Shown here: one piece after another, positions 8,327 through 40,757 of the stretch
Position numbering within the stretch: position 1 is the stretch's first letter
Layout: each line of letters starts with the position of its first letter
The notes under the pieces: model-generated
Database searches by the model: none
What the model saw: only the letters and a program-made list of their open reading frames with translations
What the model was told of the DNA's origin: nothing
NCBI GenBank assembly: GCA_000703065.1
Contig: JNLK01000001.1
Span: forward strand, 1,674,001-1,738,000
DNA from: Lachnospiraceae bacterium AC2029
GTDB taxonomy: Bacteria > Bacillota > Clostridia > Lachnospirales > Lachnospiraceae
Direction: 5' to 3'
Length of the DNA stretch: 64,000 nt
Translations under genes and position numbers: made by a program

Positions 8327-9097
8327 TTACTGCTTCTTCTCATTGATAATATCCGCAACCGGGGCTACAAAGGTCAGCAGGATTCCCAGCATGATCATCC
8401 ACCAGCCCCAGCCGACACTTGAACCTCCGCCGGAATGCGCAAAGGTTCCAAGGATAAAGTTCAGTACGCAGAAGCCCGGGATAAAGAACCGGAAATACGG
8501 AATCCCGTTGAGCCTCGACTGCAGGTTACGGAGCGCCGGAAGGTCAACCTCCAGAAATAGCAGCGCAAGACCCGCCAGGATAAACAGAACTCCCCAAAGC
8601 GCCAGGATCCCGCCGCCGGTAGCAAAGAAGCCGACACCCTGATACATACCGTAGGCTCCCATTCCGAACCATACCGGCACAAAGGAAAATACAAGGATCA
8701 GTACCGCGCCCACGATCCGGCATACCGAAGGCTTTACATACTTCGGGACGTGGATCATTTTCGGTTTCGGAGCAACATTCATCTGCTGGTATCCGCCCTG
8801 CATATTCTGCTGCGGCTGGAACCCGCCCTGCATGTTCTGTTGCTGGTATCCGCCCTGCATGTTCTGCTGCGGCTGGAACCCGCCCTGCATGTTCTGCTGC
8901 GGCTGGAATCCGCCCTGCATGTTCTGCTGCGGCTGGAATCCGCCCTGCATGTTCTGCTGCGGCTGGAATCCGCCCTGTATATTCTGCGGCTGCTGGAACC
9001 CGCCCTGCATATTCTGCGGCTGCGCGAGATTTGCTCCGCAGGCACCGCAGAAACCGGAACCATCCGGAATCAACGCCCCACAATTCGGACAATTCAT
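8327..9097 (-). CDS. zinc-ribbon membrane protein with Gln/Gly-rich tandem repeats
   Basis: The 256-residue protein starts with a zinc ribbon (MNCPNCG and FCGACG, two CxxC knuckles in the first 20 residues). Residues 26-108 consist of about eight imperfect copies of a ten-residue unit of the type QPQQNMQGGF, a low-complexity segment of Gln, Asn, Met and Gly. The last 130 residues hold about four hydrophobic helices and a short cytoplasmic end. The start follows GAAGGAGGTATTGGGTT. Proteins with this plan are common in Clostridia, but I know of no assigned function. At DNA level the repeat is a 30-bp tandem array that also opens the other reading frames, so length variation between strains is likely. 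It converges with the dus gene, 13 bases away. Confidence 0.8.
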   Translation of the reverse strand: MNCPNCGALIPDGSGFCGACGANLAQPQNMQGGFQQPQNIQGGFQPQQNMQGGFQPQQNMQGGFQPQQNMQGGFQPQQNMQGGYQQQNMQGGFQPQQNMQGGYQQMNVAPKPKMIHVPKYVKPSVCRIVGAVLILVFSFVPVWFGMGAYGMYQGVGFFATGGGILALWGVLFILAGLALLFLEVDLPALRNLQSRLNGIPYFRFFIPGFCVLNFILGTFAHSGGGSSVGWGWWMIMLGILLTFVAPVADIINEKKQ

Positions 9098-10199: not shown

Positions 10200-11528
10200 T
10201 CAGGCTACATTAACTCTAGTTACAGTTTCATTTTCCTTGACCTCAAGGTTGTTGATCCCTGCAGCCTTTATTATTTGGTAGGCTGCATTTACATCAGCAT
10301 TGATCAGTTTCCCGTTGTTGCTCCGGAACATGCCCCTGCTTATCCTTCTTGCATTATTATAGCACTGTTTATCGGGTTTTTCTCCGTCAAGATAACTGGT
10401 TCCGCTGGTATAGCTTTCATTCACCACTCTGACATCGATTCCGGCTAATCTGGCTTTATAACAGATCATATCTATCAACGTTTTATAAGGAATGGATACA
10501 AAGGTCTGGTTTGTTCTGTTTCCCAGAGCCACATGTTGTTTACATCCTCTGTTGTTGCCGATGACAATCTGGCCAGTCTTTGTTTGAAGTGCTATTTCAA
10601 TGACTTTTCGGCTGGTTTTATGAAGATAATCCTTGATCTTCCGATTGCGTTTTTGTGTCAGCCGTTCCATCCGATTGGTTGTATATCTATGATTGCTCTT
10701 CTTTGCCTGCTTCTGGAGCATTGCCTTCTTTTTGTTATAATAACGATTGATCGATTTCAGCGGACGTCCATTGATGATAACAGGATGATTCTCCGAAGCC
10801 AGGCTTATCGTCGCCAGGTTTCCAACACCCAGGTCTATCCCCATAACATTTCCGTCTTTGATCAGCGATTGTTCCTTTTGCTCATACATAATCTGTATCA
10901 GAATTTCTGTTTTTTCAGTCCGAATACGTATCTGGCGTATTCCGGAGTGCCGGGCACGAAGTCGGATTCCTTCAAGAAACTTCGGCATTCTGATATATCC
11001 GTCCTCATCAATGGTAAAATTCTGGCTCGTGATCACAAGCCGTCCCCTGCCGGTCATCGGATCCAAATACCTCGGTTTACGTGGACGTCCCATAAATCGA
11101 TGGCGGTCCTTCCTGTAAGCGGAAAGTGCCTGATAGAAAGATTTCCATTCACGACATTTTTCCTGAATACAGATCTGACTGCAGGTTGCATAAGGCATAT
11201 TCTTATACACATCCAAAGTCTTCATGTACCAGCTGAGAAAATAAGCATCCGCAATAAAGCCGTTTTGTTCGTCAATGTATTTAAGCTTCTTTCCCTTTCG
11301 CCCGTTATTATACTTCCAAATCGCACAGTTAATCGGATAAATCAACCCCTTTTCCCAACTGTCCAGGATCTCGCCTTCTTTCAGTTTCCGATGAATTCGA
11401 AAGCACTGGCTGATCAGATACTGAACCGCATTAGTGAGGTTCTTTGCGAGATAACAGTACGTATCAATCTCCTGATAGAGTGCCCTGTTTCCGCACTTCT
11501 TTATTCGATGTTCCTCGGTTAATACCAT
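10200..11528 (-). CDS. tnpB: TnpB-family RNA-guided nuclease (IS200/IS605 OrfB)
   Basis: This is a 442-residue intact TnpB, the ancestor-type relative of Cas12. The RuvC triad is visible as Asp232 in GIDLGVGN, Glu371 in VVNESYTS and Asp412 in INADVNAAYQI. The N-terminal half has basic helices and GRPRKPRYLD, the RNA-binding region. The usual CxxC...CxxC zinc ribbon between RuvC-II and RuvC-III is absent: the stretch SYLDGEKPDKQCYNNARRIS has a single cysteine, and a basic loop (RGMFRSNNGK) follows. The start follows GAGGGGGGTGAAACC. No TnpA Y1 transposase is nearby, so this copy could only move in trans. A right-end/omega-RNA segment follows at 10095-10166. Confidence 0.92.
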   Translation of the reverse strand: MVLTEEHRIKKCGNRALYQEIDTYCYLAKNLTNAVQYLISQCFRIHRKLKEGEILDSWEKGLIYPINCAIWKYNNGRKGKKLKYIDEQNGFIADAYFLSWYMKTLDVYKNMPYATCSQICIQEKCREWKSFYQALSAYRKDRHRFMGRPRKPRYLDPMTGRGRLVITSQNFTIDEDGYIRMPKFLEGIRLRARHSGIRQIRIRTEKTEILIQIMYEQKEQSLIKDGNVMGIDLGVGNLATISLASENHPVIINGRPLKSINRYYNKKKAMLQKQAKKSNHRYTTNRMERLTQKRNRKIKDYLHKTSRKVIEIALQTKTGQIVIGNNRGCKQHVALGNRTNQTFVSIPYKTLIDMICYKARLAGIDVRVVNESYTSGTSYLDGEKPDKQCYNNARRISRGMFRSNNGKLINADVNAAYQIIKAAGINNLEVKENETVTRVNVA

Positions 11529-11574
11529 GGTTTCACCCCCCTCTGCAGACCCGAATAGTCACATTCTTTTTGTG

Positions 11575-12624
11575 CTAAACTGCAGTGGGTAGCGGGGGCC
11601 GCCCGGAGATCTCTCGACAATATAAGGTCATTCGGACTTTCAGCAACTGTCCGATCAACTGTTCTTTTAATTCTTTCTGTTTCCGGTGGCTGCACATCAT
11701 AAGATTGTTCCATACTATGTAATTTCCCAGATGCTTTGTGGAAACACCGTGAAACTGGCGCAGGAACCCTTTTAATTTATTATGATATGCGTTCACACGC
11801 TGAATACCATAGGTTTTGTCTTCAATTCGAATGATCCTATGATCAGTATCCATCTGAATCAAATGAATGTTATTCTCTTTTGCAAAACCAAGATACGCCT
11901 TCTCATGATCCGTGCAAAGCGTTGCATTCGGATCGATAATCGAATGAAATGTACGGATAATACATGCCGAACTGACTTTGCCAAGCTTGGCAGGTCTCGC
12001 ATATGCTACGCCAGTGTCATTTAACGCACATGGAATGCACACCTTTTCCGAGGACAACCCGCTGATATGGATATCATTGCCTCGCTTATGTGCTTTCCTT
12101 GGCATTGAAAAGGTATGACTTCTAGTGTGGTTCCCCTTATAAGAAACACTTAGAAATGTCTCGTCAGCTTCCACCGTCCCTGTAAGGAATACATTCTCCG
12201 CAAGTTCAGAAACAGCATCCAATATCTTATGACGCCAAGAAAATGCGGTGGAAACAGACATATCACACTCATCTGCAGTCTCTCTTAGAGTTTTATGCTC
12301 AAGCATGCATTGTACATAATGCATCCAGACTGAAAGATGCTTTCTTGTCCGTGAAGTGACAGACTGTGTGCTTGGGATAAATGAACGACGACAATCTCGG
12401 CAGAGATATCTCTGGACACCGTCTTTACGAACTCCGTTTTTAACCACATGTGTACCTTCACAGTACACGCACCTGTCTCCGTTCTCCAAACGAACTTCTG
12501 TCAGAAAAGACTGAAGATTCCCATCATTAACAGGGATATCATTCGATATTGTCGAATAGAATACAATCCTGTCACTAAACGAAAGTCTGTTATATGCGTT
12601 AATAATCTCTTTAAGTTCTGACAT
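11575..12624 (-). CDS. IS1595-family transposase
   Basis: The 349-residue protein has an N-terminal zinc ribbon (CVYCEGTHVVKNGVRKDGVQ, then LCRDC), an HTH-like SVSTAFSWRHKILDA, and a DDE/DDN-type catalytic core with the first Asp in VEADETF and the second in LCTDHEKAY. The end segment VNAYHNKLKGFLRQFHGVST is typical of IS1595/ISXO2-like transposases. In-frame starts exist upstream (to 12657), but the ATG at 12624 follows AGGAGTCGGAA and is preferred. The reading frame is intact, so the element may be active. I could not fix its terminal inverted repeats. AATAGTC-ACATTC on the left and CATAGTTGACAATC on the right are weak candidates. It lies directly upstream of tnpB. Confidence 0.88.
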   Translation of the reverse strand: MSELKEIINAYNRLSFSDRIVFYSTISNDIPVNDGNLQSFLTEVRLENGDRCVYCEGTHVVKNGVRKDGVQRYLCRDCRRSFIPSTQSVTSRTRKHLSVWMHYVQCMLEHKTLRETADECDMSVSTAFSWRHKILDAVSELAENVFLTGTVEADETFLSVSYKGNHTRSHTFSMPRKAHKRGNDIHISGLSSEKVCIPCALNDTGVAYARPAKLGKVSSACIIRTFHSIIDPNATLCTDHEKAYLGFAKENNIHLIQMDTDHRIIRIEDKTYGIQRVNAYHNKLKGFLRQFHGVSTKHLGNYIVWNNLMMCSHRKQKELKEQLIGQLLKVRMTLYCREISGRPPLPTAV

Positions 12625-12674
12625 TTCCGACTCCTGTATAATCATACAAATAACCATCGATAGAATACATGTTT

Positions 12675-12886: not shown

Positions 12887-12915
12887 TTGCACCCCCCGTT
12901 CATAAAATCTATAAT
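12887..12915 (+). promoter_or_regulatory. promoter of the YGPP lipoprotein/radical SAM operon
   Basis: TTGCAC at 12887-12892 and TATAAT at 12910-12915 are separated by exactly 17 bases. The lipoprotein start follows 31 bases after the -10. This is a near-consensus housekeeping promoter, so the operon should be expressed as its own unit. Confidence 0.8.
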
Positions 12916-12946
12916 AAATTCAAAAGGGAAAGGGGGTACACCGCCT

Positions 12947-13255
12947 ATGAAGATCCGCCCCAGGAAAGCAATGATGATCGGACTTGCCGCAACCACGGTA
13001 TTTTCCGTTACCGGATGCAATAAAAAGGAGAACCAGAACGGGGAAGTCTACGGACCTCCGAATGATCTAATGACCACGGAGTCAAATTACATCGAGACCG
13101 TTTACGGACCTCCGGAAGCCTTTACCGATGAAAAAGCAACCGATGAAAAATCAACCGGTGAGAACACGGAGATCACGACCGAGAAGAAGTCCGAGGAATT
13201 CTCGGTGGATGAAAATGATCCCATAGATGTTTACGGACCTCCGGAGGATTTCTAA
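12947..13255 (+). CDS. small lipoprotein with three VYGPP motifs, candidate radical-SAM substrate
   Basis: The 102-residue protein has a basic N-terminus, a hydrophobic stretch and an SVTGC lipobox ending at about residue 24, so it should be a membrane-anchored lipoprotein. The mature part is short, hydrophilic and rich in Glu, Thr, Asp and Lys. It carries the motif VYGPP three times: before NDL, before EAF, and at the very C-terminus before EDF. The repeats are evenly written and separated by disordered acidic linkers. The start follows AGGGGG ten bases upstream. The radical SAM/SPASM gene begins 11 bases after the stop. Small repeated motifs beside a SPASM enzyme are the layout of peptide-modification systems, so I infer, without proof, that the YGPP units are modified. 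I recall a rSAM/lipoprotein pairing described in Bacteroidetes (NCBIfam TIGR04133/TIGR04134), which may be related. Confidence 0.8.
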   Translation: MKIRPRKAMMIGLAATTVFSVTGCNKKENQNGEVYGPPNDLMTTESNYIETVYGPPEAFTDEKATDEKSTGENTEITTEKKSEEFSVDENDPIDVYGPPEDF

Positions 13256-13266
13256 AGGATTCCCAT

Positions 13267-14337
13267 ATGACGAAGCAGGAGATCAAGGAAACAAATCTGA
13301 ATATCCTGGCAGACCACCATGCCAAGCTGTGCCGCGAACCCGAGCTGCGACGGCTTTTCTTCGAGCTGACGCTGCGCTGCAATGAGTCGTGCTTCCACTG
13401 CGGAAGCAGCTGTGCAAATGACCGGCCGGACGGTCTGCCTCTGGAAAAATATAAAGAAATCCTGGATGAGGTACGGGAGAATTTCGGAGCCGGCGTGAAG
13501 ATCGCACTGACCGGCGGAGAACCCCTGCTCTATCAGGATTTCTTTGAATTAACCGAATATATCCACAGTCTCGGAATGCAGTGGGGCATGACCAGCAACG
13601 CCACGCTGATCACCGCCGATGTGGCCAGGCAGCTCGCGGAGACCGGAATGACCGGTATCTCCATCAGCATCGACGGCCTGCGGGAAACCCACGACCGATA
13701 TCGCAATTATCCCGGTGGCTACGACCAGGCCGTGGCCGGTCTGGAGAATCTGATCAAATACTGCAGCGACTCCGCCCTCATGGTGACCACGGTCGTGAAC
13801 CATGAAAACATTTCCCAGCTCCCGGCACTTTTTGACTTTTTCGATAAAATGGATTTTAATGAGTGGCGGCTCACCGGCATCGAGCCCATAGGCCGCGCGC
13901 TGAACTTCCCGCACATGCTCCTTACACCCGAGGACCATAAGCACATGCTGGACTTCATCAAAGAGAAGCGGGAACAGAAGCTCCCCGTGGAATACGGATG
14001 CTGCCATTTCCTGGGCACCGACTATGAGGCCGAGGTCCGCGACTGGTATTTCCTCTGCAGCGCCGGGATCTACACCGCATCCATCATGGAAAACGGGGAT
14101 GTTGGCGCCTGCCTGGACATCCCGCGGAACGCAACCTCCATTCAGGGAAATGTGCTGCAGGATTCCTTCACAAGGATCTGGAAGGAACGCTTTCGGTTCT
14201 TCCGTACACCACTGTCCGAACGAAATGAACACTGCCGAAGCTGCCCGCAGGCAAGGTTCTGCCGCGGCGGTTCCTACCACAGCTGGAATTTCGAGACCGA
14301 CGAACCCCGTATATGCTTTAAGGACGTCCTCTTCTAG
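13267..14337 (+). CDS. radical SAM/SPASM protein, probable lipoprotein-modifying enzyme
   Basis: The 356-residue enzyme binds a radical-SAM [4Fe-4S] cluster through Cys38, Cys42 and Cys45 (RCNESCFHC). ALTGGEPLL is the SAM-contacting GGE motif and ISISIDGL a later core strand. The C-terminal SPASM/twitch region shows LCSAGIYTASIMENGDVGAC, a GN...IW segment and HCRSCPQARFCRGGS, which would hold auxiliary Fe-S clusters. SPASM enzymes typically modify peptides or small proteins (anaerobic sulfatase maturase, PqqE, sactipeptide and cyclophane synthases). No RiPP-recognition (PqqD-like) domain is seen at the N-terminus. It is the second gene of a two-gene operon with the VYGPP lipoprotein and ends in its own terminator, which makes that lipoprotein the obvious candidate substrate. 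Confidence 0.9.
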   Translation: MTKQEIKETNLNILADHHAKLCREPELRRLFFELTLRCNESCFHCGSSCANDRPDGLPLEKYKEILDEVRENFGAGVKIALTGGEPLLYQDFFELTEYIHSLGMQWGMTSNATLITADVARQLAETGMTGISISIDGLRETHDRYRNYPGGYDQAVAGLENLIKYCSDSALMVTTVVNHENISQLPALFDFFDKMDFNEWRLTGIEPIGRALNFPHMLLTPEDHKHMLDFIKEKREQKLPVEYGCCHFLGTDYEAEVRDWYFLCSAGIYTASIMENGDVGACLDIPRNATSIQGNVLQDSFTRIWKERFRFFRTPLSERNEHCRSCPQARFCRGGSYHSWNFETDEPRICFKDVLF

Positions 14338-14351
14338 AGAACGTCCTTTTT
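14320..14351 (+). terminator. rho-independent terminator overlapping the radical SAM stop
   Basis: AAGGACGT (14320-14327) pairs perfectly with ACGTCCTT (14341-14348) and is followed by more T residues. The left arm lies in the last codons of the radical SAM gene, so the operon ends immediately after it. Confidence 0.75.
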
Positions 14352-16319: not shown

Positions 16320-16767
16320 CCAGGGGGCCCCTCCCTCACTTTGTTCGGGCTATCCCCTGGCTATTGTACCATGCTTTTGCTTCGCAAAATCATGCATCTG
16401 CTTCGCAGATGGACGCTGCTCGCTTTGCTCGCATCGTGTATCCCTTCGGGACCAGGGGGCCCCTCCCTCACTTTGTTCGGGCTATCCCCTGGCTATTGTA
16501 CCATGCTTTTGCTTCGCAAAATCATGCATCTGCTTCGCAGATGGACGCTGCTCGCTTTGCTCGCATCGTGTATCCCTTCGGGACCAGGGGGCCCCTCCCT
16601 CACTTCGTTCGGGCTATCCCCTGGCTATTGTACCATGCTTTTGCTTCGCAAAATCATGCATCTGCTTCGCAGATGGACGCTGCTCGCTTTGCTCGCATCG
16701 TGTATCCCTTCGGGACCAGGGGGCCCCTCCCTCACTTTGTTCGGGCTATCCCCTGGCTATTGTACCA
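16320..16767. repeat. 132-bp tandem repeat, 3.4 copies, hairpin-rich
   Basis: Units start at 16320, 16452, 16584 and 16716, exactly 132 bases apart, the last one partial. They are nearly identical (a single TTTG/TTCG difference was seen). Each unit holds small perfect hairpins such as CATCTGC-TTC-GCAGATG, TTTTGC-TTC-GCAAAA and TCCC-TTC-GGGA. CCAGGGG and CCCCTGG can close a longer stem. A diverged single copy lies at 40205-40367. The unit length is a multiple of three, which keeps all forward frames open by chance; I see no gene. The array fills most of the 553-base gap between the S66 peptidase and the symporter. Confidence 0.95.
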
Positions 16768-40491: not shown

Positions 40492-40496
40492 ACATA

Positions 40497-40750
40497 GCAT
40501 TATTTTGCGAAGCAAAATCATGCGATCACGCACGAACCGCAGGTTCGTGCAGAAGCAGGGCTACGGCGATTGCTTCCCTTCGGGAAGCATCGGTGGAGCA
40601 CTGCGTCTCTCAGCGTTATTTTGCGAAGCAAAATCATGCGATCACGCACGAACCGCAGGTTCGTGCAGAAGCAGGGCTACGGCGATTGCTTCCCTTCGGG
40701 AAGCATCGGTGGAGCACTGCGTCTCTCAGCGTTATTTTGCGAAGCAAAAT
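40497..40750. repeat. 116-bp hairpin repeat, two full copies plus a partial one
   Basis: Units start about 40501, 40617 and 40733, 116 bases apart. Each full unit holds three perfect hairpins: ATTTTGC-GAA-GCAAAAT, GCACGAACC-GCA-GGTTCGTGC and GCTTCCC-TTC-GGGAAGC. The array lies inside the tRNA operon between tRNA-Asn and tRNA-Cys, so it is transcribed. No gene is encoded. Confidence 0.93.
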
Positions 40751-40757
40751 CTCGCAT

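Follow-up and report, generated by a model that had tools for sequence, protein, structure and literature searches.

A radical SAM/SPASM enzyme and a protein that carries Tyr-Gly-Pro-Pro (YGPP) units form a conserved system, and their pairing goes beyond chance. Judging from conservation among the partner proteins, the enzyme very probably modifies its partner at the Tyr-Gly step of these units, and we give a probability of roughly 0.55 to the reading in which it splices the units by excising tyramine, which would leave ketoamides on chains that are mostly displayed at the cell surface. The system was found in a window of 64,000 nucleotides, which corresponds to bases 1674001-1738000 of a 3.86-Mb genome contained in one contig.

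Within the window, a gene for a 102-residue lipoprotein is followed after 11 bases by the enzyme gene (Table 1), and these two open reading frames confirm the two-gene operon, with three VYGPP units and a SPASM enzyme, that a sequence-only reading of this DNA had described. The lipobox SVTGC, read from the sequence, follows a signal peptide and marks the first product as a bacterial lipoprotein with Cys24 as its lipobox cysteine, and no NCBIfam model scored above its cut-off and no Pfam model matched. From Cys24 on, Asp and Glu make up 27% of the 79 residues, which agrees with the acidic chain reported earlier. The third unit, previously placed at the C-terminus, lies near it but is followed by EDF. 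Across the 3.86-Mb genome, a DNA pattern encoding VYGPP has three matches, all inside the lipoprotein gene, and its reversed control pattern has eight. The promoter had been called near-consensus, which is generous because its -35 element is weak (three of six consensus positions) and the site is absent from the list of a consensus promoter scan, whereas its -10 element is perfect. The terminator that had been placed at 14320-14351 was borne out by a stable hairpin, and its loop and stem are absent from the list of the consensus scan. Directly upstream of the operon (window 10200-12657) are a TnpB/IS605 OrfB-like gene and an IS1595-type transposase gene. The window also contains two near-perfect tandem repeats, one with a 132-bp unit (3.4 copies, 16320-16767) and one with a 116-bp unit (2.2 copies, 40496-40751), and the minus strand at 8327-9097 encodes what looks like a zinc-ribbon membrane protein whose gene contains a 30-bp repeat approximately eight times.

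Table 1. Features of the operon, with positions in the window.
Feature	Position	Strand	Details
Promoter-like site	12887..12915	+	-35 TTGCAC, 17-nt spacer, -10 TATAAT (12910-12915); read from sequence
Lipoprotein gene	12947..13255	+	102 aa, signal peptide, three VYGPP units
VYGPP unit 1	13046..13060	+	Residue 34
VYGPP unit 2 (VYGPPEAF)	13100..13114	+	Residue 52
VYGPP unit 3 (VYGPPEDF, protein end)	13229..13243	+	Residue 95 of 102
Radical SAM/SPASM enzyme gene	13267..14337	+	356 aa, sister clade of TIGR04133
CxxxCxxC motif, SAM-binding cluster	13378..13401	+	C38, C42, C45
SPASM auxiliary-cluster cysteines C264-C350	14056..14316	+	Invariant in 15 aligned sequences
Intrinsic terminator hairpin	14320..14348	+	-15 kcal/mol, z -4.18, 0/200 shuffles as good

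The enzyme scores above the cut-offs of both Radical_SAM (PF04055, 88.4 bits) and SPASM (PF13186, 30.4 bits). The cysteines of its CxxxCxxC motif and of its SPASM domain (264, 282, 323, 326, 332 and 350) are all present and invariant in the alignment, so that the enzyme belongs to the radical SAM/SPASM group and its clusters appear intact, as had been stated. An AlphaFold model (pLDDT 90.6) matches SPASM structures, among them SkfB, BlsE, SuiB and anSMEcpe. The best NCBIfam model is TIGR04133 at 261.7 bits, below its cut-off of 425. The MftC profile scores 126.7 bits, and TIGR04103, which we take to be the same family as IPR026482, reaches 111.9 bits against a cut-off of 725; the AhbD, NirJ2, MftC, AhbC and NirJ profiles each score the enzyme at least as high as TIGR04103 does. 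Pairwise identity is 27% to an MftC and 24% to a TIGR04103 member from Nostoc.

A homologue scan with one genome per bacterial or archaeal species returned at least 555 relatives of the enzyme, and the loci of the best 80 of these were compared. A YGPP partner is present for 79 of these 80 loci (adjacent in 74, elsewhere in the genome in 5), which upholds the lipoprotein-enzyme pair as a conserved system. Co-oriented upstream YGPP-type ORFs account for 73 of the 80 loci, and 61 of those 73 have their stop no more than 60 bases from where the enzyme match begins. At locus L085 the ORF is cut by a contig edge, and its remaining end reads VYGPPEDMP before the stop. A VYGPP lipoprotein sits approximately 5.6-5.7 kb upstream of the enzyme in L080 and L084 and farther away in the genome in L086, L088 and L096. 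For the sole locus at which no partner was found (L152), the enzyme begins at a contig edge, and the two YGPP matches in that genome are AAA+ proteins. Judging from record titles, ruminant-gut Lachnospiraceae, Ruminococcus and further Clostridia supply most of the 80 loci, and Erysipelotrichaceae and Coriobacteria supply some. Seven same-genus loci have the partner nearby within the fetched stretch in five cases and elsewhere in the genome in two, with the partner approximately 5.7 kb upstream in genome G692 and on other contigs in G697. Two VYGPP proteins per enzyme, adjoining or on separate contigs, were observed as well (L231 and L232, G697; L143 and L121). A conserved third gene was considered and rejected: none was detected across the best 80 loci (blastp E <= 1e-8, ORFs of at least 50 residues, within 3 kb), and the largest neighbor family, which is mixed, reaches 11 of 80. 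Carriage on viral contigs was likewise rejected, with 12 weak matches of which the best has an E value of 5e-16 at 22% identity.

Within the family, the enzyme occurs in 18 of 299 Lachnospiraceae genomes (E <= 1e-60). All 16 genomes with an unbroken enzyme encode a YGP or YGxP partner, which is adjacent in 15 and unlinked in G120; these 16 include G248, in which the enzyme is cut by a contig end, and G266, which has a frame open for 525 codons and was counted as unbroken even though the search had read one stop within the alignment. Three partners each carry a single, divergent motif (YYGCP in G266, IYGPKP in G029 and IYGPMP in G092). A zinc-ribbon YGP protein is encoded in 6 of the 299 genomes, all of them enzyme genomes (hypergeometric P = 2e-8), and lies away from the enzyme in G120 and G180. 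The 281 enzyme-less genomes showed no coding cluster of [VIM]YGPP in a search that was aimed at two or more units and leaves room for single-unit and LYGPP proteins; the listed matches were judged by eye, and 31 further enzyme-less genomes with at least two hits on a strand were searched again. As far as proteins with at least two units are concerned, this outcome favors the pair over a lipoprotein that occurs without the enzyme. An apparent VYGPP pair in the enzyme-less genome G295 was rejected, as no gene is plausible in the tandem DNA repeat that contains it. The TIGR04133 profile found only 2 of 398 genomes of the phylum at E <= 1e-60, neither above the cut-off, and under-counts the VYGPP enzyme clade.

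It would be very improbable, given these data, that an ordinary radical SAM enzyme merely neighbors an unrelated low-complexity lipoprotein. Low-complexity acidic lipoproteins are common, which lends this explanation some plausibility, but it is contradicted by the co-occurrence in the best 80 loci and in the 16 genomes and by the confinement of the VYGPP pattern to the lipoprotein gene, and we rejected it. The YGPP units are the likely target of the enzyme, as had been proposed. As a small control, the stretches examined around the four other, distantly related radical SAM matches in the window's genome contained no YGPP ORF.

Several loci depart from the arrangement in the window. The window's genome encodes a second enzyme, 45% identical to the first (G000:C1:2826702-2827751), which is followed by a zinc-ribbon LYGPP protein; this region (L037:8688-10657) appears to be a non-exported branch of the system. 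In G266 (L044:7701-9278), the enzyme is extended at its C-terminus, and the extension shows an HSHP...S..D pattern that by eye resembles JAB/JAMM metalloproteases and that has no Pfam match, and the short YYGCP lipoprotein comes after it. In G029 (L040:2058-4505), a clade enzyme stands beside genes that look WXG100-like, perhaps of type VII secretion, and a zinc-ribbon YGPKP protein.

The consensus of 290 YGP-type units is approximately [FY]DP-[ES]-[DE]-N-x-P-E-D-V-Y-G-P-P-E-[DW]-F, and Val precedes Tyr in 254 of them. The partner ORFs, 85 in number and gathered by rule without curation, contain 245 VYGPP units, around which the variants that differ from VYGPP at one position comprise 31 with a changed Val, none with a changed Tyr or Gly, and 3 and 6 for the two prolines. 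At least one of these ORFs is no partner (an Lgt-like ORF in L109), and each was selected for one [VILMA]YGPP, so that conservation of Tyr-Gly is free of selection only in the further units. Neighbors of VYGPP with two changes show no excess (22 versus approximately 54 in shuffled sequence). Gly is not absolute, as at least three more divergent units recognized by eye lack it (VYSAP at two places in L135, EYEAP at one in L099). Val and Pro were rejected as the modified target, both varying more than Tyr and Gly.

The proteins that carry the units are diverse, including lipoproteins, dockerin, DUF805 and other membrane proteins, and zinc ribbons, and the tag is common to them. A lipobox was recognized by a rough pattern in 54 of the same 85 uncurated ORFs, and Tat-like RRxFTAAG signals were seen by eye in L090, L098 and L102. 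Dockerin_1 was detected in 8 of 11 upstream partners that were picked for Pfam scanning because they looked dockerin-like (L117, L121, L133, L134, L135, L144, L154 and L155; L089, L090 and L128 were negative). The L035 partner is a DUF805 protein, and a protein in G120 looks alike. The earlier proposal of surface display thus stands for the many carriers that look exported, whereas a few look cytoplasmic, namely the zinc ribbons and, by eye, L131 and the second ORFs of L104, L146 and L150. No conserved leader is evident in the partners by eye. In L109, the Lgt-like ORF (lipoprotein diacylglyceryl transferase) lies near a lipoprotein gene, upstream of the partner gene. An AAA+ protein in the window's genome contains LYGPPGTGK, which indicates that the five residues of the motif cannot be enough by themselves.

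In two genomes of the family, the enzyme is broken. The G041 enzyme has lost 17 residues including CxxxCxxC, and its neighbor reads RSGPP where relatives read VYGPP; the G189 enzyme gene is split across two frames, and its neighbor reads LYAPPP. From their position, these neighbors are probably former partners, each seen in a single genome in which an assembly error is possible. The losses bear on the idea that VYGPP serves two functionally linked proteins for docking alone, with the modified site at another residue or in another substrate. Repeated short motifs can serve as docking sites, but the carriers have little in common other than the motif, and beside the broken enzymes that motif has lost Val-Tyr in one case and Gly in the other, and we regard docking alone as improbable.

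Modification at Tyr-Gly recalls the spliceases. PlpXY needs no leader and works at MYG and LYG sites, of which a precursor can have several (PMC10533398, PMC10373908), several splicing events per precursor are possible (PMC10373908), and PlpX is assigned to IPR026482 (PMC11002830). The VYGPP units, with their unchanged Tyr and Gly, share the conserved X-Tyr-Gly of splicease substrates. In the TIGR04103 locus of Nostoc sp. C057, our one example of a TIGR04103 precursor with YG, a Nif11 precursor ending RGSIALYGLPPELF is encoded together with the enzyme and with a small protein of 71 residues, and two further precursor-like genes nearby lack YG. A PlpY-like gene was detected neither in the best 80 loci, where a diverged PlpY could escape, nor in the window operon. 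When tags were placed in FtsZ, PlpXY accepted 2 of 16 placements, both GYG with extra context, and none of the LYGLPI tags tried, which indicates that the motif alone is not enough. The 2022 work of Scott et al. on widespread splicing may already include the VYGPP enzyme clade. TIGR03913 (GDL) enzymes (L185, L187) are 48% identical to the Nostoc enzyme and have DUF1843 peptides as partners; these lack a conserved YG, as among three that were read two have YG at non-equivalent places and one has none. The chemistry of these enzymes, close as they are to a splicease-family enzyme, may merit attention.

An alternative chemistry would modify the units without excision, through a C-C, ether or other Tyr cross-link (cyclophane-like) or through mycofactocin-like oxidation of Val-Tyr. 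The top structural matches of the enzyme model include SPASM enzymes with differing chemistries, MftC exceeds TIGR04103 in both profile score and identity, and mycofactocin formation involves a Tyr and the Val next to it (PMC8326336). Excision-free modification would nevertheless leave unexplained why Gly is conserved nearly as strongly as Tyr while Val and both Pro vary. Furthermore, MftC acts on a C-terminal Tyr, and VYGPP units are internal and repeated. We therefore consider this alternative unlikely, though well ahead of docking. The cross-link, epimerisation and ether suggested by the sequence-only reading would each fit the Tyr-Gly conservation less well than backbone splicing would. 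The FtsZ tag results, the units without Gly and the identity to MftC slightly lower the odds that we give to splicing.

According to the splicing reading, the enzyme would recognize the short X-Tyr-Gly-Pro-Pro units of its partner with no need for a conserved leader. Radical SAM enzymes are cytoplasmic, and each unit would therefore be modified at the Tyr-Gly step before export. Splicease-like excision of tyramine from each unit would produce alpha-keto-beta-amino residues in the backbone, and the modified chain would then be exported and held by the carrier's own anchor, which for the window's lipoprotein is a lipid. The outcome would be a row of electrophilic ketoamides at the cell surface. 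Spliceotides are described as protease inhibitors (PMC11117315, PMC10373908), which leads us to speculate that the tethered chain could trap proteases covalently or inhibit them. A broader version, to which we give somewhat less than even odds, is a portable ketoamide display at the surface of gut Clostridia and relatives. In it, leader-free tyramine splicing at VYGPP tags would give each protein up to approximately seven backbone alpha-keto-beta-amino residues, whether the carrier is a lipoprotein, a membrane protein or a dockerin protein of the cellulosome type. The display would trap proteases covalently or serve as a reversible cross-linker at the surface, and zinc-ribbon proteins would form a parallel branch inside the cell. 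If splicing is true, small-peptide natural-product chemistry would be at work on surface proteins of common gut bacteria, surface ketoamides could bind proteases or other nucleophiles, and TIGR04133, whose NCBIfam label names no reaction, would gain a testable one. Ketones might also be installed in proteins by means of such a leader-free tag.

The kinship to TIGR04133 was assessed in a tree of 43 rows that covers 20 of the 80 loci and omits AhbD, NirJ and PqqE rows. The clostridial clade and TIGR04133 join at 97/94, which points to shared ancestry among limited outgroups; the next join, with TIGR04103/TIGR03913 and an Agathobacter protein, is weak (90/67). The tree program warned of long branches for the MftC, Rhizobium, Klebsiella and Thermus rows. 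TIGR04133-type enzymes are encoded on plasmid records of Parabacteroides, Phocaeicola (unannotated, placed by the tree) and Treponema. The Parabacteroides and Treponema loci pass the cut-offs of TIGR04133 (607.9 and 451.4 bits) and TIGR04134 (207.1 and 43.7 bits). In Parabacteroides, Phocaeicola and Treponema, the lipoproteins have EYGSP, EYGTP and CYGMP soon after the lipobox, and the TIGR04133/TIGR04134 pair with a YGTP-like motif that the sequence-only reading had mentioned was thus located in three loci. A radical SAM protein distantly related to the enzyme is encoded on a 4773-bp ColRNAI-type Klebsiella plasmid with at least five records (L188:45-935). A literature search found no paper on the names TIGR04133 or TIGR04134, on VYGPP, or on YGPP with lipoprotein, and broader searches returned nothing on the enzyme/lipoprotein pair by title and abstract.

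Compared with known systems, the window operon is like TIGR04133/TIGR04134 in pairing a SPASM enzyme with a lipoprotein, and the enzymes form sister clades. The window lipoprotein does not match TIGR04134, and the common trait is YGxP. A TIGR04134-type partner has one YGxP within about a dozen residues past the lipobox Cys, whereas the window lipoprotein has several YGPP units on an acidic chain, and the VYGPP clade, unlike TIGR04133 systems, also uses other carriers. The residue before Tyr is mostly Val in the VYGPP clade but Glu or Cys in TIGR04134-type partners. With MftC (TIGR03962), the enzyme would share action at a Tyr adjacent to Val (PMC8326336), but its MftC score falls below the cut-off of 265 bits, and its units differ in position and number. 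The likeness to spliceases comprises the X-Tyr-Gly rule, several sites per chain and no evident leader, and the TIGR04103 precursor core LYGLPPELF resembles the VYGPPExF of the window lipoprotein. Unlike spliceases, the VYGPP system has an enzyme with low identity to the Nostoc member and no PlpY seen, and where splicease precursors are Nif11 or proteusin proteins, VYGPP partners are lipoproteins, dockerin or membrane proteins, and zinc ribbons.
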